A program made the translations under genes and the position numbers. 33,446 bases of DNA from contig CAMCKZ010000030.1 of NCBI GenBank assembly GCA_945875545.1, positions 1-33,446 on the forward strand, in the 5' to 3' direction. The stretch is from Polyangium aurulentum (GTDB lineage: Bacteria; Myxococcota_A; Polyangia; Polyangiales; Polyangiaceae). A model generated the notes under the pieces. It was given only the letters and a program-made list of their open reading frames with translations, made no database searches and was not told the DNA's origin. Below, one piece after another: positions 4,399-33,446 of the stretch (position 1 is its first letter; each line of letters starts with the position of its first letter).

Positions 4399-5601
4399 CT
4401 AGTTGCCGAGCCAGGCGGCGAGCCTGGCACGCCTGGTCTCGTTCAGTGGAACGGTGGCGGGCGGCATGTTTTGCAGCACAACGACCCGTTGCTTGATGAG
4501 GGCGCGGTTCGCAACCCAGGCGCCGTACGTCGACAGATTGAGTCTGCCCGGGGCCGTGACGGCGTGGCATTGGAGGCAGGTTTCGCGGGCAATCGGCAAC
4601 ACCTTGTCGATCCAGTCCAGTTCGTCGGGGCTGGCGGGGCCCGCGTCGACGGGTGCCGGTCCAGCATCCGTTCCACCATCGGTGGTGGCGACGGGAGCGC
4701 CCGTGAACGGGGCCAAATACGCGCGACGACCGGAGAGCGTGACGCCGATGCTGAAGGACTTGCAGGTGCCCTGTCCGTCGCCGTCGAGATCGCCCAAAAG
4801 CCGCAAAAAGCCTAGGGCTCCATCCTTTTCGGCGGACCCCAGATCGAACTCCTGAATGATGCCGTTCAGCTCTTCGAGGGTGACCCCACCGCCGATGACG
4901 CCCGTGACGCGGCCGTGCTCGTTTTCGTCGAGAACGAGGCGCACGCGGGCGCCCTTCAAGTGAAACTTGAACTTCTCAGCGAAAACATAGACGAGGAGCG
5001 TGAGGTTGAACGGGCCGACCTCGAAAACACCGTTTTTGATGGCGCCGACCGCGTGGGTTTCGTCGCCCGTCGGGTCGAGCTCGAAGGTTTGGTTCGGGTC
5101 AAGCTCGCCGTCGGTTCCCATGGTTGGCGTGCCGAGGCCCGAGCGAAAACGGACCTCTACACACGGGTCGTCCTTCAGGTTGTCGATGCCGTCGAGGGTG
5201 ATGGTTGAAAGGAGCTGCCCGTTCTCGATGGCCCCTTTGATGATGAGGTTGACGTCGGCGGCGGTGATGCCGTCGAGGAGCGGCAGGAGTTTGGCGAGCT
5301 GGTTGTCGATGCCTGGCCGGCCCTCGGCATCCAGGTAATCGCCCTGCTTGCACGTCAGGAGCTTGCTTTCGTCGGGCTGATTGGCGTCGCTGACGAGGCC
5401 GTCGATGTCGAAACCGGCGGTAACGCCCTTCGGATTTTCGCGGGCGAAAGCGAGCCGCGAAAGAATCGTGGTTTGCGAGGCTCCGGGGGTGCACGTATCG
5501 CCGACGCGTTGGTTTTTTTCAGGTGAACTGCAGCCCATCGCGAGAGCGCCCACGGTGCCAAGAAGGCCTGCAGCGATGACGCTGGAACGGGAAAAGAGCA
5601 T
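4399..5601 (-). CDS. Lipoprotein with a C-terminal c-type haem motif
   Basis: This is a 400-aa exported lipoprotein, last gene of the minus-strand block. The N-terminus MLFSRSSVIAAGLLGTVGALAMGC has a hydrophobic stretch and lipobox with Cys24. The middle (about 40-290) is not recognised; it has beta-rich, calcium-protein-like segments with many Asp/Gly. The last 70 residues look like half of a class I cytochrome c: CLQCH at 342-346, and NMPP with Met379 as plausible distal ligand, followed by a terminal helix ending AAWLGN. Its ATG shares one base with the TGA of the DUF1552 gene (TGATG), implying translational coupling. Similar CxxCH tails occur next to DUF1552/DUF1592 genes, so a periplasmic or outer-membrane redox role is inferred; substrate unknown. 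The motif array lies directly downstream. Confidence 0.8.
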   Translation of the reverse strand: MLFSRSSVIAAGLLGTVGALAMGCSSPEKNQRVGDTCTPGASQTTILSRLAFARENPKGVTAGFDIDGLVSDANQPDESKLLTCKQGDYLDAEGRPGIDNQLAKLLPLLDGITAADVNLIIKGAIENGQLLSTITLDGIDNLKDDPCVEVRFRSGLGTPTMGTDGELDPNQTFELDPTGDETHAVGAIKNGVFEVGPFNLTLLVYVFAEKFKFHLKGARVRLVLDENEHGRVTGVIGGGVTLEELNGIIQEFDLGSAEKDGALGFLRLLGDLDGDGQGTCKSFSIGVTLSGRRAYLAPFTGAPVATTDGGTDAGPAPVDAGPASPDELDWIDKVLPIARETCLQCHAVTAPGRLNLSTYGAWVANRALIKQRVVVLQNMPPATVPLNETRRARLAAWLGN

Positions 5602-6920
5602 CAGGATGCCTCGATCGCGGTGAGCCGGTCCGACGATTTTGCGGTGTCGAGACCGTAGTCGGCGCGGCGCAGGCCCATGGCGTTCACCAGGGTCAGCATG
5701 ACGCGGCTCGCGTTGTCTTCGGTGGTGGACTTGATGTGCAGGCCGGTCTTCAAAAAGCCTCCGCCCTTGCCCGCAACGATGAGCGGGTAGTTGTTCAGCT
5801 GGTGCGTACGACCAAAACCACAATCGGTCGTACCGAGTATGACGCAATTATCGAGGAGGGTGCCGCTGCCTTCTGGGATCGCCTTGAGGGCACCGAGAAG
5901 GTAGGCAAATTCCTGCATAATCGTGAGAATAATCCCGTGCACGTTGGGCTGGTTTCCGGCCTCGTCGTGGGTGAGTTGGTGGTGGCCGGCGCTCGCGGTG
6001 CCGATCAAAATGTCGGCGAGGGGCTGGGTGAACATGTCGAAAAAGACCCGCGTCTGATCGCACGCCAAGGCCATCGCGAGAAGATCGCTCATGGCGCGGC
6101 TCACGGCGCTGAGCTGTTGGCGGCCCGCAACATCGGTGTAGTCTGCAAGTGGTGCGTTCGGCAGTGCGCAGGCCGCGAGGGAGACCGGCGAGGCTTCCAA
6201 ACGGGCAATCTGGCGTTCGAGGGAACGCACGCCCTCCAAATGCTGCTCGATGCGGGCTCTGTCGCTCGCGCCGAGGCGCGCCTTGAGCGCGGTCGATTGG
6301 GCCAGCACGCCGTCGAGAACGCTGCGGCGAAGGGGCAGGCGAGGGTCGGGGCCGGTGGTGGCGTTGGGGTCGCGAAAGTCTTCGCCGAAGAGGCGATCGA
6401 AGAGCCTCGCGGGGCTCGTCTCGATGGGATTCATCTGCGTTGGGCTCGCGTAGGAAAGGCTGCGCGTGCTGCGTTGAACCCCGAACTCCAAGGAGCGAAA
6501 ACGCGTTTCGCCGCCAAGTTCTTTTGCAATAACCTGGTCGACGGTCGGTGCAACATACATGTCGGTTCGCAGGGCGGCGCCCGTGAGAAGGCCCGCGGGC
6601 CCGGCGCCGTGAGGTCGGTCGTTTTTCACGTTGACCTTGAAGCCCGTGATGACGTTGATGTCGGCCTTGTGCGCCGCAAGAGGCGCGAGCTGCTCGGACA
6701 ACTGCCAATTCGTGCCCTCGCCGGTCGGTGCCCAGCGATCGGGAATGACGCCGTTGCCCCAGAAGAAGACGCCGAAGCGCTTGGGGAAGGGCGTTCCGTT
6801 CGCGTAGGCGGTGCCAGACGCGTTCATGAAGGCTTCGAGGGGTGGGAGGGCCACCGAGACGGCGGCGCCGCCTACGAGGCCCCTGAGCACGGTGCGGCGG
6901 TCGAGTTTGAAGTTAGGCAT
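5601..6920 (-). CDS. DUF1552 family protein, Tat-exported
   Basis: This 439-aa protein belongs to the DUF1552 family, which is usually found beside DUF1592/DUF1588 proteins in Planctomycetes and myxobacteria and has no established function. The start at 6920 gives MPNFKLDRRTVLRG, a twin-arginine motif (Arg8-Arg9) followed by a hydrophobic segment to about residue 30, so folded export by Tat is likely. Family hallmarks are FGVFFWGNGVIPDRWAP near 45-61, GPAGLLTG near 100, SLEFGVQRSTRSLSYASP, and the C-terminal TDCGFGRTHQLNNYPLIVAGKGGG. This last part recalls sulfatase/alkaline phosphatase-like DUF1501 and DUF1552 proteins. It starts 5 bp after the DUF1592 gene stops and overlaps the next gene by 1 bp. 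Two dispersed 11-mers lie in it (6137, 6549). Confidence 0.88.
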   Translation of the reverse strand: MPNFKLDRRTVLRGLVGGAAVSVALPPLEAFMNASGTAYANGTPFPKRFGVFFWGNGVIPDRWAPTGEGTNWQLSEQLAPLAAHKADINVITGFKVNVKNDRPHGAGPAGLLTGAALRTDMYVAPTVDQVIAKELGGETRFRSLEFGVQRSTRSLSYASPTQMNPIETSPARLFDRLFGEDFRDPNATTGPDPRLPLRRSVLDGVLAQSTALKARLGASDRARIEQHLEGVRSLERQIARLEASPVSLAACALPNAPLADYTDVAGRQQLSAVSRAMSDLLAMALACDQTRVFFDMFTQPLADILIGTASAGHHQLTHDEAGNQPNVHGIILTIMQEFAYLLGALKAIPEGSGTLLDNCVILGTTDCGFGRTHQLNNYPLIVAGKGGGFLKTGLHIKSTTEDNASRVMLTLVNAMGLRRADYGLDTAKSSDRLTAIEAS

Positions 6921-6925
6921 GATGG

Positions 6926-8644
6926 TTACTCGCCCTGAGCGGGTGCGCTTGCAATGCGGAAGGAGTCGCTCATGGCGACGGATTTGAGGAGCGCGTGCAA
7001 ACGATGACCGCCTGCAATAAAGCTGGTCGTCAGGGAGTTGATCTCCGCCTGCTCGCCCTTGCCCGCCGTGTGGCCGTAGGCAAAACGATGAATTTTCTTG
7101 ACAACGCACTGGGGAAAGTCTGGGTGGCGGGCGACCAATTCCGAGAGCTGAAGGGCGCCATCAAACGTCGAGCCGTCGAGTTCGCCGGTGAGGTCAAGGG
7201 GCGCGCCGTTGTCGGTCTTGCGGAACTTGCCCGCGCCGTCGAAGCCCTCGAGGGGAAGGCCCACCGAGTCGATGGGAATGTGGCAGCCGGCGCAGAATGG
7301 CACCGTCTGGTGAGCCAGCAAACGCTCGCGCATCGTGCGAAGATTGGCCGCGACCTCGGGGATCGCCGTGTCGACGTTCGCCGGCGGCGGGCTCACTGTT
7401 TGGCAAAGGAGCGTCTCGCGAATAAACGCCCCGCGCTTGGTGGGACTAGACCCTGTAGGGTGCGCGTAATACGCGAGGAATCCGATGGACCCCAAGAGGC
7501 CCGAACGGGGAGAATCGCTGGGGAATGTAACGAGGCCAAAGCCTGTCTGAGAAGGGGCCGCGACGTCGTAGAGCGCGGCGAGCTTGCGGTTCACGAACGT
7601 TTCGCGCGTCGTGAACATGCTCCGCAGATCGGCCTTTGTGTCGAGGGCGATGCGCTGAATGTCGAGCAGGACCTCTTGCCTAGCGGCCGGGCCCACTTCG
7701 CCGCTAAACGACGTGAAGATCGTCGTGTCTTTGGCGAGATCTTGGAGCCCGCGAAGGTGCAGCCACTCGTCGACGAAAGACGAGAGCCCGCGCCGGGCCT
7801 TGGGGTCTGCGAGGAGTCGATCAACTTGCGCCTCAAGCCCCGACGCCTTCGCCAGATCGCCCTTCTTGGCGGCGTCGAGAAGGGCCTCGTCGGGTGGGCC
7901 GTCCCACAGGAAAAACGCTAGCCGCGAAGCAAATTCCGTATCCGAGTAGCGATGCTCTTGGGGCTTGGCCGGGGTCGGGGAACCAACCTCGACGCGGTAA
8001 ATAAATTCCGGTGACTGGAGAAGCGCTGCGACGAGAAATCGAACCGATTGCGCGGGCGCTTGCATCGCCGTTCCGGCGTTGGTCGCAAGAACCATGAGGG
8101 CGTCGAGTTCCGTCTCGGTCACGTCGCGACGCCACAAACGGCGACCGTACTTCGACGCGATGGATCGAAGGCACGGCGCGTCGATCGTGGGCGTGGGCGT
8201 GGGCGTGCCGACGAGGCAAGGCGCGAACCGCGCGGCGGCCGCTTCGGTGGCCATGATTTGTTTGCCAATGTCGTAGGCGATGGCCTCGAGGTTCTCGACG
8301 CCGCGAGGCGAAATGCTGGAAACGCTCGACCCCACCGACGCCGCACCCTCGACCATCACGTCGGGTTCGGGCGGCACGGCAACGATGATGGCGTCGCCGA
8401 ACACGTCGAGAATCGCGTTCTGAAATTGCGATTCGGTGAGGCGCCGCAATGCCGACGGCTCGGACTGAAAGGCACCGGCAGTCGTGTCCGCGGTGCCATT
8501 CGGCGTGACCATTGGGGCCGAGGTAGGCTCCGCTGCGGTCTCGAAACACGCCGCAAGCGAACCCAGAAGAACCGCGGTGCCGACGGCGGCGGCGGTACCG
8601 AGCGTGCGGGCCTGGGGACGGAATCGTTTTGTAAGCATTTTCAT
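6926..8644 (-). CDS. DUF1592/DUF1588-family lipoprotein (PSD-type, CxxCH)
   Basis: This is a 572-aa exported protein of the multi-domain family with DUF1587, DUF1595, DUF1592, DUF1588 and DUF1585 in that order. The N-terminus has a signal ending in the lipobox LAAC with Cys33. RRLTESQFQNAILDVFG (about 66-82) is the DUF1587 start; RRLWRRDVTETELDAL is DUF1595; ASRLAFFLWDGPPDEALLDAA is DUF1592. The DUF1588 part contains RETLLCQTVSPPPANVD and the haem-type CAGCH, and VVKKIHRFAYGH is DUF1585. In Planctomycetes this family pairs with cytochrome-like or DUF1552 proteins, as here; biochemical activity is unproven. ATG 8644 and ATG 8638 are both possible starts. The gap to the upstream hydrolase gene is only 6 bp, so the genes are co-transcribed. 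Confidence 0.9.
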   Translation of the reverse strand: MKMLTKRFRPQARTLGTAAAVGTAVLLGSLAACFETAAEPTSAPMVTPNGTADTTAGAFQSEPSALRRLTESQFQNAILDVFGDAIIVAVPPEPDVMVEGAASVGSSVSSISPRGVENLEAIAYDIGKQIMATEAAAARFAPCLVGTPTPTPTIDAPCLRSIASKYGRRLWRRDVTETELDALMVLATNAGTAMQAPAQSVRFLVAALLQSPEFIYRVEVGSPTPAKPQEHRYSDTEFASRLAFFLWDGPPDEALLDAAKKGDLAKASGLEAQVDRLLADPKARRGLSSFVDEWLHLRGLQDLAKDTTIFTSFSGEVGPAARQEVLLDIQRIALDTKADLRSMFTTRETFVNRKLAALYDVAAPSQTGFGLVTFPSDSPRSGLLGSIGFLAYYAHPTGSSPTKRGAFIRETLLCQTVSPPPANVDTAIPEVAANLRTMRERLLAHQTVPFCAGCHIPIDSVGLPLEGFDGAGKFRKTDNGAPLDLTGELDGSTFDGALQLSELVARHPDFPQCVVKKIHRFAYGHTAGKGEQAEINSLTTSFIAGGHRLHALLKSVAMSDSFRIASAPAQGE

Positions 8645-28058: not shown

Positions 28059-29045
28059 ATGCGGCTTTTTTCTTTCTCTGTTTTTCCGCAGTTTCTTGGG
28101 GCGTGTCTCGCAGCGGGTTGCACGACCCCCGCTTCGTCGAATGGCGCGGGCAACCCAGAACCCTGTGCCTTCGGAGACTGCCCTTCTAGCGACGGTGGGC
28201 CGTCGCCGGTCGATGGATCACGAGGCGACGGGGCGGTGGTTGCACCGCGCGATGCGGCCGTCGCTGACACGGGGCCTTCTGGTGCCGTTATCAACTGGGA
28301 CGGCTCGCGTCCGCCCTACGACGGCGCGGTTCCGGTGCGCGACGCGGCGTGGGAAGATGGCGGCGTCGTTGGGCCAGGCGGGCCCGTATTGCCCGGCGAT
28401 CCCCCGAACCGCGCGATATGCTCAAACGCTGGCCCCTTGGGTTTTTCCACACAAACGCTCACGGCAACGTCGCTTCCTCGCGGCAGCACAGACCCGATCA
28501 CGGCCCCGTGGGCTACCGCGGCGCAGCGCACCGGCGCGCCGGGTCCAGCGCTGATTCTCGTCGACAACTTGGGCATCTTGCCCGCCGGGGGTATTCGCGC
28601 GGTGCGTGTCGGAGCGCCGCGCAGCACCGGTGGATCGAGCCCATTCGGATTCTTGCAGATTGCAAACAATCCGGTGGCGACAAATTGGTCGCTCACAAAT
28701 ATGTACGGAGTAGCGGCCGATACAACCGCGAGCACGATGCCCGCAGGCACGTTGCGTTTGAAGGCTGCGTCCGGCGCGAACGTCGATATTCCGTTCGTTG
28801 CGGTCAAGCTCGATGGCCGTTTCGTCATCGAGCAAACGAGCGAGGCGTGCACGCATTTGCAGGTCGGCAGTCTCGCGTTTTTCATCGCTGAGAGTGCGGG
28901 CACCACGCTTCTCGAAGGGCAAGCCTTGAGCACTCTCTTGGGCACACGAACGTTCACTCTTGGCACACCCGCGGGCACCACCACGTATTGGCGCATCACG
29001 CTGAGCGGGGCAGCTCCGGTCGTTTCTCTTCAGGCATCTCCATGA
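28059..29045 (+). CDS. Lipoprotein A of the A-B-A'-B' operon
   Basis: Function unknown. It is a 328-aa lipoprotein: MRLFSFSVFPQFLGACLAAGC gives a lipobox with Cys21, preceded by a GAGGG ribosome site about 5-10 bases upstream. Residues 25-130 form an Asp/Gly/Pro-rich linker with the recognisable segment WDGSRPPYDGAVPVRDAAW followed by GPGGP. A beta-rich domain fills residues about 140-328 (PGPALILVDNLG, ASGANVDIPFV, LEGQALSTLLG, WRITLSGAAPVVSL). The protein downstream at 30802 has exactly the same length and shares all these segments, so the two are paralogues. The stop codon overlaps the next start by four bases (ATGA). It is probably surface-exposed by analogy with other linker-rich myxobacterial lipoproteins; this is inference. 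Confidence 0.8.
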   Translation: MRLFSFSVFPQFLGACLAAGCTTPASSNGAGNPEPCAFGDCPSSDGGPSPVDGSRGDGAVVAPRDAAVADTGPSGAVINWDGSRPPYDGAVPVRDAAWEDGGVVGPGGPVLPGDPPNRAICSNAGPLGFSTQTLTATSLPRGSTDPITAPWATAAQRTGAPGPALILVDNLGILPAGGIRAVRVGAPRSTGGSSPFGFLQIANNPVATNWSLTNMYGVAADTTASTMPAGTLRLKAASGANVDIPFVAVKLDGRFVIEQTSEACTHLQVGSLAFFIAESAGTTLLEGQALSTLLGTRTFTLGTPAGTTTYWRITLSGAAPVVSLQASP

Positions 29046-30802
29046 AGAGTACACGTAGTTTGAGTGCGTCACTTTCGGTGGCCGTTGCCGCGATGATGGC
29101 CGCTGTCGCCCTTATGGTCGCTTGTTCTGCGCCGCCAAAATCTGCGCCCATCGTCGGCGACGACGGTTTCGTCACAACGATTGTATCAGGCGAAACGCTG
29201 GCAACGCAGGGTTTGCTGCCCGCCTACCCCGCATGTTGTCCCGGTGCAGAATGCTGCGCGCCGCCGTATTTTTGCGCCTATTTCGATACAGCCGATGCGA
29301 GCTTGGGCGATGCGGGCGCCGCCATCAGTCCCGTATCGGGCCTTCGTTTGGTGGGCACGAGCCCAAAGGCCGGGGTCGGTGCAGCTTGCAAGAATCAGAA
29401 CGCGACGGCGTTCTCGGTGCCGGTCGCGATCGCGACACTGCTCTCCTACGACAACGCGATGGATTACGGGCAAGTGTTCCTTCCCTGGCCAGAAAACGAT
29501 ACCGACTCCTGGATCGTTGACGGCGCTCGCCGTGGCCTTGGTGACTTCTCGACCGACAGCACGCTCTCGAACGGCCTTGTCGGCTTGGTCGCGCGGCAAC
29601 CCAGGTGGCCGGGTTACGACTGTTACTGCGCCTGCATCCCGTTCACCAGCATCTGTGGGTGCGCGGCCACCTGCCACGACCGACTGAGCTGCAACCAAGG
29701 CGACTACGACGGCGCGTCTTCCGGAGCGTATACGCTGGCTGCGCAAGGCGGGTCCATGATGGGCGTTTTGCCCGACCCGTACTTCAACGATTCGTTCACC
29801 GAGATGAGCTCGGGCAACCCGCTCACGCTCGGCATTCGTGCGGCAAAAACGCGCCTCACGACTTACTGGAACACGAACAAGATGGCCACGCTCGCCATCG
29901 TCGTGACGTCGGCCGACTACGAGTATGGCTGCGGAAACGACATGAACACGCTCGCAACCGAGGCGTATGCATCAGCGTTCAACGGAAACCCGCGCATCTC
30001 GACGGACGTCGTTGGGTTCAGAATGGACGCCAACATGTCCAACGCGTTCGACACGGTGCGGCGCAACGGATGGGGTGCGATGAGCAGGAGCTGGCCCGGC
30101 AACGCGCGCACCGACATGAAGAACGCGATGACGTTCATGCGCAGCCAAGAGAAGGCCATGGCGTTCTTCGTGAATCCGCCCACGAACGGCGAGGCCATCG
30201 ACGACGCGTCGTTCAAGTTTTATCTCACCGCCGACGGCACCGAGACCCTTGTCCCGAATGCGGGTGCGCAGTCTGGCTGCGGAAGTTCGGCTCAGGGCTT
30301 TTGGCTCACCCGTCCCGACGGCGCGACGGGCCGCGTTCGAATCAACCTCTGCCCCGGCACGGTTGCAGTGGCCGCGCGGGCCTTTACCGTGAGCGGCCGC
30401 GTTGTTTACGATTGCGTCGAAACCTTTCCCTCCGCGGCTACCTTCGTCCGCGAATTCGACCTTTCGCGTTGCGCCTCTTCCGACACGAGCGCCACGCGGG
30501 CGGTGCGCCTCGACTGGGACACCACGCTCCCAGCCGATACCGCTGTGACCTTCAATGTGAAGCTGGCTGCGCAGAAATCGCAGCTCGCAAGCGCGCCGGT
30601 GGCCGTGAGCGCGTCGGCCCTTCAGTGGGTGCCCGGCAGCGAAAAATCGTATGTAGACCTCACCAATCGATCGCTGGTCACGCTGCCTCCGAACTACCAG
30701 TGGGCGCGCGTCGAGATGGCCTTGAAGTCGTCCGTCGATACGTTGCGAACACCCACGATCAGCAGTTGGAAGTTGACGTTTACCTGCACGGACGGCTCCT
30801 AA
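29042..30802 (+). CDS. Lipoprotein B, degenerate VWA-like domain
   Basis: This is a 586-aa lipoprotein (signal to Cys28, LMVAC). A double-CC motif follows, CCPGAECC, then FCAYF. The body has the layout of myxobacterial VWA-domain lipoproteins: a strand IATLLSYDNAMDYG near 130-142 where DxSGSM is expected, W and GLGDFSTDSTLSNGLVGLVARQP, SCNQGDYDGA, GNPLTLGIRAAKTRL (from 258, where TP..AL is usual), LAIVVTSADYEYGCGN (from 284, where VVLxTDGxP is usual), ISTDVVGF, and the C-terminal FKFYLTADGTETLVPNAGAQSGCG, TGRVRINLCPGT. The MIDAS residues are replaced, so metal binding is doubtful. A seven-Cys insertion (DCYCAC..CGCAATC) is missing in the paralogue at 31785. The start at 29042 overlaps the A stop (ATGA). 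Confidence 0.8.
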   Translation: MKSTRSLSASLSVAVAAMMAAVALMVACSAPPKSAPIVGDDGFVTTIVSGETLATQGLLPAYPACCPGAECCAPPYFCAYFDTADASLGDAGAAISPVSGLRLVGTSPKAGVGAACKNQNATAFSVPVAIATLLSYDNAMDYGQVFLPWPENDTDSWIVDGARRGLGDFSTDSTLSNGLVGLVARQPRWPGYDCYCACIPFTSICGCAATCHDRLSCNQGDYDGASSGAYTLAAQGGSMMGVLPDPYFNDSFTEMSSGNPLTLGIRAAKTRLTTYWNTNKMATLAIVVTSADYEYGCGNDMNTLATEAYASAFNGNPRISTDVVGFRMDANMSNAFDTVRRNGWGAMSRSWPGNARTDMKNAMTFMRSQEKAMAFFVNPPTNGEAIDDASFKFYLTADGTETLVPNAGAQSGCGSSAQGFWLTRPDGATGRVRINLCPGTVAVAARAFTVSGRVVYDCVETFPSAATFVREFDLSRCASSDTSATRAVRLDWDTTLPADTAVTFNVKLAAQKSQLASAPVAVSASALQWVPGSEKSYVDLTNRSLVTLPPNYQWARVEMALKSSVDTLRTPTISSWKLTFTCTDGS

Positions 30803-31788
30803 TGCGTTCCCCATTTCTTGCTCCGACGGTCGCCATTTGCGCCCTTGTTCTGGGTACCGGTTTTCTCTCCGCGTCGTGTTCCAAGGCCGCGCCCGCCGCG
30901 CCGGCCGGCGACGATCCTTGCCTGTATTCTGCATGCGATCCCGTGGATGCATCGAGGCCCGTCAAGGCCGATGCCGCGGCGGCCGACGCCTCCCCTCGCG
31001 ACGCCGCGTGGGGCGATTCGTCGCCAGGCAACGGCGTAACCGAATGGGACGGCTTCGTGCCTCCCGTCGACGGCGATATTCAGGTGCCCATTCGCGACGC
31101 CACATGGGGTCAAGACGGCGTTTCCGGCCCCGGCGGCCCCATCGCAGCAGGCCCCATGTCCGATGCCACCGATTGCGGACCGGGCCCCGTGGCCTTCGCT
31201 ACGAACGACCTTGAGGTCATCACCACGGGCGCAAATGCGCTTCCAGTGGCCTTCAAAACCCAGTGGGCGGCGGCGGTGGCGCGCGCGGGTTCTCCTGGTC
31301 CTGGCCTGGTGGTTCTCGCCAACACGGGCTCCGTCGACGGCGGCACCCGGCGTTTTTATTTTGGCGCACCGGTGGCCGCAGGCAGCGCGTACGCGTTCGT
31401 ATCGCAGCCCAATAACCCCTTCATCGCTTCGTGGAACTTCGTTCCCGCGTCGTACGTCGAGGCCACCGCGGCCGTCACGGTGAACACCTCGGCGGCGGTT
31501 CTTCGCTTTCGCACCGCGGCCGGAAGCAACGTCGATGTGCCCGTTGTCGATGCCTCTTTTCAGGGCGCGATTCGCGGCCGTGCGGGAGATGCTGCACTCT
31601 GCACGGGTCTCGGAAACACCGTACTTTCGCTGGTTATTCCGGCGGCAGGCGGAAGTATCACCCTCGAGGGTCAAACGCTCGAGGGCACACTTGGTGCGCC
31701 CGCAAGGCAGGCAAGCGGGGTCATCGGTTGGACCATCCGCCTCTTCGGTTCGCTGCCCAAAGTTGCCTTCTCCGGAGCGCTTCCGTGA
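30802..31788 (+). CDS. Lipoprotein A' (paralogue of lipoprotein A)
   Basis: It has 328 aa, the same length as A. The signal MRSPFLAPTVAICALVLG ends in the lipobox SASC with Cys26. The linker contains WDGFVPPVDGDIQVPIRDATW then GPGGP, clearly the counterpart of the A linker. The domain shows PGPGLVVLANTG, NNPFIASWNF, AAGSNVDVPVV, LEGQTLEGTLG and WTIRLFGSLPKVAF, each alignable with A. The ATG at 30802 shares one base with the TAA of B (TAATG), and its own stop overlaps the next start by four bases. Two 11-mers (30923, 31593) are at positions that have no motif in A, while the motif in A at 28654 is absent here. Function unknown. Confidence 0.8.
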   Translation: MRSPFLAPTVAICALVLGTGFLSASCSKAAPAAPAGDDPCLYSACDPVDASRPVKADAAAADASPRDAAWGDSSPGNGVTEWDGFVPPVDGDIQVPIRDATWGQDGVSGPGGPIAAGPMSDATDCGPGPVAFATNDLEVITTGANALPVAFKTQWAAAVARAGSPGPGLVVLANTGSVDGGTRRFYFGAPVAAGSAYAFVSQPNNPFIASWNFVPASYVEATAAVTVNTSAAVLRFRTAAGSNVDVPVVDASFQGAIRGRAGDAALCTGLGNTVLSLVIPAAGGSITLEGQTLEGTLGAPARQASGVIGWTIRLFGSLPKVAFSGALP

Positions 31789-33446
31789 AGAAACTTTCCG
31801 CTTTTTTCGCGAGTCTTTGCGCGGCGACCGTGTTCGCGGTTTTGGGAGTGAGCGCGTGCTCCGAGGCGCCTGGTACCGGGCCCGCGCCTGTGAGCGCCGT
31901 TGCCGCGACCGTCCTTCCTGACGCGGGCGGTTGCTTTTTTCCCAAGGAAAATGCTGGGGGAATGCGCACCATGAGCTTGTCGGTGCCGGCCGCGGGCTGC
32001 TGCCTCGACACCCTCTGTTGCTACCCATTTTGCGCCTACCCCGACACCATCGACAGCACGGTCATCGTGCCTCCGGCGTTTCAAAGTGCCGACGGCCTTC
32101 GCCTCGCGCCCACGTCGGCCACGTGCCGCGATCAGGGTGCGGCTGCGGCCCAAGCGCCCGTTGTCATGGCGACGGTGCTTGGCTACGACTACGCCGGATA
32201 CGACGGCGCCGTTGATTTGTGGCAGGGTTTTGTTGTCAAGTACAATCGGCTTGGCATCGGCGATTTCTTCGGAAACGCGGCACAAACGCAGGGTGCCCTG
32301 GGCTTGGTCACCCGCGACCCACTCTTTTCGGGCAGCAACATCGACTGCAATCAGGCGAGCTACGACGCCGTGACCAGTGCGGTTCTTTCGCTCACGCCGA
32401 ACGCCGGTGCCCTGCTGGGCGCTTGGCCGGTGCCGGGCAACATGGATTGGTGGGGGCAGCCCGCGGGCAATCCGGTCACTCTTGCCCTTCGCGCGGCGAA
32501 GGCTCGGCTTCTCAGTTATTGGGCCGCGAACAAGTTTGTGTCGCTCGCAACCGTGCTGGTCGTAAACGACTTTCCGGCGGCCTGCGGCGACAACCTCACG
32601 CAGCTCAATGCCGACGCCTGGGCGAATGTGTGGGGCACGGGATCGGGCACCAACCCGCGTGTCGAAACCGACGTCATCGTGGCCAACAACGACTACTTCG
32701 GCAGCGGCTACAACTACCAATACGACATCGTGCGCCGCAACGGCTGGGGCTCGATGGCCAGCTATTCGAACAGCTCCAACGCCTACGTTCAGAGCAAGGC
32801 GCAAGACGCCATGTTCTTCACGCGCAAGCAAATCGCGGTGGATCGCTTCGTGGTGCAACCCCCGTCCACGGGCGAGGTCGTCGATCTGACTACGCTCAAG
32901 TTCTACTTGACAATCGACGGCACCGAGCAACTCGTGCCGAACGCCGGCGCGCTGCTTGGCTGCGGCACCACGCTGCCAGGCTACTACGCCGAGCGCCCTG
33001 ACGGCGTGAACGGCCGCATTCTGATCAACCTCTGCCCGGTCAGTTCGGGCCAGGCGGCAGGTGGCGCGGTGCTCTCAGCGCGTGTCGTCTACAACTGCGA
33101 GCAGGTGCTTGGCACCCAGGCAACGTGGGTGCGCCCTTACGCGTTCGACATGACCGGCTGCAGCGCCGCGCAACCGCCCACCGCCACGCGATTCGAGTGG
33201 AACGCGAGCCTGCCAAGCAACACCTGGATCGAGTTCCGTCTCGCGTTTTCGCCCACCGTCGATGGCGCGCAAACAGCCCCGGTGAATTACAAGTGGCAGG
33301 CGCAGGCATGGTCGAATCCCGCGAGCGCTGTGGGTTACATGGAGCTGGCCCGTATGGCCCTCCAGAACCCGCTTCCGGCCGATTACCGCTGGAGTCGTCT
33401 CGAAGTCGAGCTCCACGCGAGCCAAGACCTCAAATATACGCCGTCT
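31785..33446 (+). CDS. Lipoprotein B' (paralogue of B), incomplete at window end
   Basis: The frame is open for 554 codons from a GTG start at 31785 to the end of the window, with no stop. The GTG overlaps the A' stop (GTGA). The signal MKKLSAFFASLCAATVFAVLG ends in SAC (Cys27). A CC..CC..FCAY motif follows (GCCLDTLCCYPFCAYP), as in B. The VWA-like body has ATVLGYDYAGYDG for the lost MIDAS motif, then GIGDFFGNAAQTQGALGLVTRDP, DCNQASYDA, GNPVTLALRAAKARL, ATVLVVNDFPAACGDN and VETDVIVA. The C-terminal domain has LKFYLTIDGTEQLVPNAGALLGCG and GRILINLCPVS. It lacks the Cys-rich insertion of B. The C-terminal end lies outside the window. Its signal, shared motifs and phase make it a real gene. Confidence 0.85.
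   Translation, partial: MKKLSAFFASLCAATVFAVLGVSACSEAPGTGPAPVSAVAATVLPDAGGCFFPKENAGGMRTMSLSVPAAGCCLDTLCCYPFCAYPDTIDSTVIVPPAFQSADGLRLAPTSATCRDQGAAAAQAPVVMATVLGYDYAGYDGAVDLWQGFVVKYNRLGIGDFFGNAAQTQGALGLVTRDPLFSGSNIDCNQASYDAVTSAVLSLTPNAGALLGAWPVPGNMDWWGQPAGNPVTLALRAAKARLLSYWAANKFVSLATVLVVNDFPAACGDNLTQLNADAWANVWGTGSGTNPRVETDVIVANNDYFGSGYNYQYDIVRRNGWGSMASYSNSSNAYVQSKAQDAMFFTRKQIAVDRFVVQPPSTGEVVDLTTLKFYLTIDGTEQLVPNAGALLGCGTTLPGYYAERPDGVNGRILINLCPVSSGQAAGGAVLSARVVYNCEQVLGTQATWVRPYAFDMTGCSAAQPPTATRFEWNASLPSNTWIEFRLAFSPTVDGAQTAPVNYKWQAQAWSNPASAVGYMELARMALQNPLPADYRWSRLEVELHASQDLKYTPS

Follow-up and report, generated by a model that had tools for sequence, protein, structure and literature searches.

Described systems closest to the locus

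The described proteins that come closest to this locus are surface adhesins. CglB is a surface adhesin of gliding (PMC12282271 and PMC13104615), and Bdellovibrio has an adhesin of the MIDAS family, Bd0875 (PMC11003981). The locus analysed here encodes pairs of predicted lipoproteins, a small one (A) and a large one (B). By sequence comparison, no named protein comes closer than CglB to the VWA (von Willebrand A) part of B. VWA is a binding domain familiar from proteins of cell adhesion. However, B cannot be filed as CglB, since the CglB model (NCBIfam NF033757, curated cut-off 200 bits) matched neither B nor its second copy B', and none of the three genomes of the genus matched it at all. An A-B unit is defined here as an A-domain gene directly before a large lipoprotein gene bearing a characteristic C-terminal tail, and the pairs of this locus have that arrangement. 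No description of such a unit was found in the literature searched.

Organization of the locus

The window, that is, the whole stretch of DNA analysed, corresponds to a complete contig (33,446 bases) of an assembly of 3.52 Mb (188 contigs, 97.5% complete; genome G000 in our numbering). The features of the locus are the following:

28059 to 29045, plus strand: gene A, class 1, a lipoprotein of 328 aa with an Asp/Gly/Pro-rich leader and the A domain
28410 to 29042, plus strand: A domain of gene A, the C-terminal ~210 aa, delimited by alignments and profile searches and present in 12 genera
29042 to 30802, plus strand: gene B, class 1, a large lipoprotein of 586 aa whose start overlaps the stop of A
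29378 to 30160, plus strand: VWA-derived region of B (about residues 113-373), from a profile-profile match and a residue alignment
29444 to 29458, plus strand: place of the DxSxS metal site in B, occupied by Ser-Tyr-Asp-Asn-Ala (residues 135-139, residue alignment)
30161 to 30412, plus strand: Cys-containing module of B, directly after the VWA region, as in VWA lipoproteins
30485 to 30799, plus strand: C-terminal domain of B (about residues 482-586), predicted to be beta-rich only from its sequence pattern; the constant tail of the partners of A
30802 to 31788, plus strand: gene A', class 2, 328 aa, whose start overlaps the stop of B
31159 to 31785, plus strand: A domain of A', from alignments
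31785 to 33446, plus strand: gene B', class 2, 554 aa seen with no stop, whose start overlaps the stop of A'

The initial annotation had described a tandem A-B-A'-B' operon with overlap at all three junctions, and the order, the protein lengths and the repeat unit of 2,743 bp between the starts of A and A' were all reproduced from the coordinates of the open reading frames. The junctions are ATGA (29042-29045), TAATG (30800-30804) and GTGA (31785-31788). These overlaps suggest that neighbouring genes could be translationally coupled, not that their products are made in a given ratio. B' is truncated at its right end because the contig stops there, which is an assembly cut. Promoter and terminator patterns at the locus were no more numerous than in shuffled sequences. 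Elsewhere in the window, three adjacent secreted-type proteins are encoded on the minus strand (4399-8644), and by eye this trio resembles the cytochrome-linked sets of DUF1552/DUF1592 proteins that occur in Planctomycetes and Myxococcota.

Two diverged copies of the pair

A and A' are 35% identical (BLASTP, E 5e-35), and so are B and B' (E 2e-99). Both values are far beyond chance, which bears out the proposed paralogy of each couple. All four N-termini carry a hydrophobic stretch up to a Cys that has Gly, Ala or Ser immediately before it, and this Cys is invariant in the 8-row alignment of A and in the 7-row alignment of B. These residues are compatible with the proposed lipoboxes, but position -3 is atypical in several copies. 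The leaders noted after the predicted lipid anchor are present as well, Asp/Gly/Pro-rich in A and A' and Cys-rich in B and B'.

Both classes of the pair occur in the three genomes of the genus examined. Identity is 59-67% within a class and 33-42% between classes for A, and 61-72% and 30-39%, respectively, for B. Since identities within classes exceed those between them, the first duplication predates the three species of the genus, in agreement with the long divergence suggested for the copies. The dN/dS ratio between orthologues was about 0.19-0.36 (NG86), with dS at 0.9-1.5, near saturation. Such values are as expected if both classes are kept under purifying selection, as working genes are. 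The trees of A and of B agree on classes 1 and 2 and differ in the attachment of a third pair, found in relatives (see below). The AlphaFold models from the window's own A/A' and B/B' sequences had a mean pLDDT of 29.4 (A) and 32.2 (B), too low for any fold to be read from them. The identity of 35% over 594 aligned columns argues for B and B' probably sharing one fold.

B derives from VWA lipoproteins and lacks the metal site

B and B' gave no convincing family in Pfam or NCBIfam, VWA (Pfam PF00092) had no match in either of them at E values up to 10, and the sequence search of solved structures returned nothing for B. Partial relatives of B are of two kinds: its middle resembles VWA lipoproteins, and its last ~120 residues resemble large proteins from many genera. 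A profile of seven B sequences matched a profile of three VWA lipoproteins (G059, G079 and G023, with PF00092 matches confirmed for G059 and G079) with a probability of 98% and an E value of 2e-13 over 309 columns (hhalign), and the match spans both the VWA region and the Cys-containing module behind it. By this profile comparison, the core of B is a derivative of the Myxococcota VWA lipoproteins. The initial annotation knew no described system of this composition; with B descending from VWA lipoproteins, the composition does have relatives.

The metal site has been lost in this derivative. In a residue alignment against five motif-bearing VWA regions, DxSxS was absent in all seven B sequences, so B was rejected as a MIDAS-type VWA adhesin. 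Relatives read DSSGSM, DQSGSM or DRSGSM where B has SYDNAM and B' has GYDYAG. The later Thr of the metal site is kept in four of the seven sequences, and the Asp of the third motif has no aligned counterpart in B, with a family-invariant Asp lying one position further. A control VWA lipoprotein from the window's genome (L133:2399-3679, minus strand, contig C153 of G000) keeps the motif (DKSSSL, TDG). Due to the loss of this site, the head of B in the genus would have to bind differently or be structural. On the other hand, the VWA region has been kept and duplicated despite this loss, which suggests that the unit may outlive the classical VWA binding mode.

It could be asked whether B and B' are the stand-in of the genus for CglB, the tandem pairs being parts of a focal-adhesion complex for gliding. 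Weak matches to the CglB model turn up in 32 of 39 relatives but in none of the three genomes of the genus, the model scores E 1e-8 and 7e-7 against the VWA parts of the A-paired B proteins of G016 and G066, respectively, and CglB itself is a surface adhesin of gliding in the sources cited above. However, none of the 39 genomes has a match over the cut-off, the metal site is gone from B, and A also pairs with FG-GAP and choice-of-anchor heads, all of which makes this explanation very improbable.

A is a family of its own

Searches of Pfam, NCBIfam, PHROGs and PADLOC gave nothing for A. A phage or defence origin was rejected for lack of matches in the last two, and two solved structures of malate dehydrogenase, reached at E 0.5, were taken as chance. 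Early A profiles reached G016, then G018, G066, G089 and G084, and then G035, G079 and G108. The A protein of G042 matched that of G108 by BLASTP (E 4e-13), and later reached E 4e-36 with a profile that already included G042. A 16-row profile added G022, G097, G014, G055, G100, G029, G005, G253 and G378 from a phylum-wide sample.

The family is patchy, with members in 12 of 317 genomes of the class at E 0.01 (12-row profile), and it diverges to about 20% identity. The phylum-wide search retrieved 15 of 377 genomes at E 0.001, one of which (G433) was judged false. These searches score only the best first-look candidates, and members may be missed. The 25 A genes considered below leave out the A'' gene of G002, inside which the contig ends, and G433, whose match covers 44 residues within an FG-GAP-like frame. 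Partial or leader-only matches were also left out (G125, G105, G004, G130, G001:C530, G001:C549, G002:C511, G013:C101, G021:C1 and G000:C3). Among them, the proteins of G125 and G105 were inspected, and a profile scan of G013:C101 (L111) gave no match.

A is nearly always followed by a large lipoprotein

Downstream sequence could be read for 25 A genes, and behind 23 of these, from 12 genera and two families, a gene for a large lipoprotein comes next on the same strand. The two genes overlap in 13 of these pairs and are separated by 1-13 nt in the other 10. G018 was scored as paired on the ~75 residues that lie between the junction and the contig end, and the ends of the partners of G018, G084 and G035 are not readable. 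The last seven pairs were located through A alone in the phylum-wide sample and thus are an independent test of the pairing.

The two exceptions, G253 and G378, are both distant and weak A matches. The overlapping next gene in G253 is a lipoprotein-like frame that is shorter and lacks the tail domain, and the next gene in G378 encodes a 357-aa protein of a different kind. A-like domains outside the order may have another kind of partner, as in G253. On the minus strand of G253:C205 (L158), a frame resembling a TonB-dependent receptor by eye lies behind the short lipoprotein-like frame. A search for A-B pairs in other Myxococcota had been suggested, and it found the pairing in the 12 genera mentioned; the opposite outcome, many genomes with A but no B, did not occur, the exceptions being these two.

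Operon genes with related functions commonly have overlapping starts. Hence A and B could be co-transcribed envelope lipoproteins of one pathway that never touch, their closeness reflecting shared regulation only. Nevertheless, the pairing survives both the exchange of the head of B and the divergence of A to about 20% identity, and it persists where the gene upstream is another one (judged by eye, the window has an FAD-type oxidase there, G001 and G002 a NUDIX-type gene). Co-transcription without contact is for these reasons unlikely.

The partner combines an exchanged head with a constant tail

The middle of the partner varies between genera, being a degenerate VWA, an intact and paired VWA, an FG-GAP or a choice-of-anchor L head, and these classes cover all partners except those of G042 and G018. 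The genus has degenerate VWA heads. Two VWA stretches were matched in G016. In G066, Pfam matched one such stretch and another was recognized by eye, and the head of G035 is VWA-like by eye without a Pfam match. FG-GAP heads were matched in G089 and G079 and recognized by eye in G084. Choice-of-anchor L heads are found in G108, G022, G097, G014, G100, G029 and G005, and the partner of G055 is nearly identical in appearance to that of G014.

The C-terminal tail domain, by contrast with these heads, is present in all 19 partners readable to the end. A tail profile of 13 non-genus partners, which match it by construction, recovered the six genus members with E values from 4e-14 to 4e-7, the best of 120 shuffles giving 1.3; a genus-only tail profile had earlier found G016, G042, G022, G097 and G005. 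The same domain was found in 16 other proteins, a count that omits G052 and G065 (loci cut by contig ends). An A gene precedes only that of G042, and the final profile scan agrees. Since the other 15 of the 16 have no preceding A, the tail can work without A. The idea that A and B belong together therefore holds in one direction: nearly every A gene has its partner (23 of 25), but most of these other tail proteins do without A.

This distribution also bears on whether A could be a maturation or export factor (a chaperone, a folding factor or a surface delivery factor) that acts transiently on the Cys-rich B instead of being a lasting subunit. The A gene leads every pair whatever head B carries, B is Cys-rich, and each B has its own A, all of which speaks for such a factor. 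However, most proteins with the same tail and a similar Cys-rich N-terminus manage without A, and A and A' have diverged as much as B and B', beyond the need of a general helper. A transient role of this kind is rather unlikely.

The cluster in the genus

The gene order in G002 is A-B-A'-B'-E-A'', up to the contig end inside A''. The B' orthologue of G002 has 1319 aa; beyond the portion present in the window it carries Cys-rich repeats, a beta-helix-like stretch (by eye) and a Gly-rich end. E, which overlaps the end of B', encodes a Cys-rich protein of 475 aa with a lipoprotein-like start. G001 carries A-B-A'-B' on one contig, and on a second contig the end of an E-like gene, then A''-B'' and then an OmpA/TSP3 gene. 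A third pair, sought downstream at the suggestion of the initial annotation, was thus found in relatives (A''-B'' in G001, A'' up to the contig end in G002). The anchoring gene sought in the same way has a candidate in the OmpA/TSP3 gene behind B'', but in G001 only. Its orthologue in the window's genome (54%) lies on contig C4, away from the cluster, and forms the last part of a very long TSP3-type frame; hence the link is not conserved and this gene was rejected as a fixed cluster member.

That frame of contig C4 (L142:3844-15999, minus strand) exceeds 4,000 aa (5,823 listed) and has Asp-rich TSP3-type repeats and a MYXO-CTERM-like tail, after which it continues, with no stop codon between, into an OmpA-type beta-barrel protein, by fusion or by an assembly slip.

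No continuation of the cluster (the remainder of B' plus E, A'' and B'') was seen in the window's assembly, where it is unassembled or absent. The search for these genes gave an E-like paralogue elsewhere, a partial match of 35% and, where a contig ends, a Gly-rich match. Two contig ends (L131:1-720 on C60 and L132:11129-11473 on C36) carry overlapping parts of one E-like Cys-rich lipoprotein gene, and C60 and C36 probably adjoin each other. An alignment of B and B' alone found no relative in the genome contigs; the seven-row B profile retrieved three loci from two MAGs of lake origin (Lake Erken and Kiruna), and these correspond by length to contigs C424 and C138 of G001 and C418 of G002.

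Proposed function of the A-B unit

Taking these results together, A could be a partner dedicated to a surface lipoprotein of modular build, and the locus two copies of a two-gene envelope unit of a Polyangiales-type bacterium; we give this explanation an even chance of being right. According to it, A would be a small lipoprotein whose domain forms a separate family, and B a large modular lipoprotein with a Cys-rich N-terminus, an exchangeable head and a constant C-terminal domain. A would be made just ahead of B from the same message, and both would be located in the outer membrane, facing outward. There, A would bind the constant part of B, most likely its C-terminal domain, and hold B at the surface. 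The head of B would bind a ligand or a neighbouring cell, in the genus without the usual metal, or alternatively could have a structural role there. A-B and A'-B' would be two specialised versions rather than spares. Counting against a dedicated partnership, closely spaced genes are ordinary in operons, the A-like genes of G253 and G378 precede other kinds of protein, and the trees of A and B disagree on the third pair.

A broader and more tentative proposal, towards which we lean less than halfway, is that the dedicated partnership could belong to a display platform of Myxococcota, in which A would dock large lipoproteins, the C-terminal domain would act as the plug and the head would be freely exchanged. 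If true, a cell with tandem A-B units would possess several adhesins or receptors, and a matched dock for each of them. Surface lipoproteins govern the contact of social and predatory myxobacteria with prey, kin and surfaces, and few of them have a known partner. A small partner that is kept whatever the head would help to sort many unnamed genes.

Comparison with known systems

Like CglB of Myxococcus xanthus, B is a predicted lipoprotein with a VWA-derived region followed by a Cys-containing module, and VWA relatives of B, including the A-paired B proteins of G016 and G066, match NF033757 weakly. Unlike CglB, B lacks DxSxS, has an extra C-terminal domain and is accompanied by A. The VWA lipoproteins of Polyangiales (G059, G079 and G023) show the same order of VWA region and module as B, but they keep the metal-site motif and have no tail domain. 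The large modular lipoproteins of Polyangiales (e.g. G033, G013 and G087) share the C-terminal domain with B and, wherever it is recognisable, a lipoprotein-type N-terminus, whereas they have other heads and no preceding A.

Bd0875, a surface adhesin of a predatory bacterium, offers a comparison with a VWA-type adhesin, and B may work in a way analogous to such VWA/MIDAS adhesins. This likeness is by description and not by sequence: the function of Bd0875 depends on the metal-site motif, and the available sections of PMC11003981 mention no A partner. The pairing is real, old and apparently unnamed, and it would represent a variant within the modular lipoproteins of the cell surface, not a system that stands alone.
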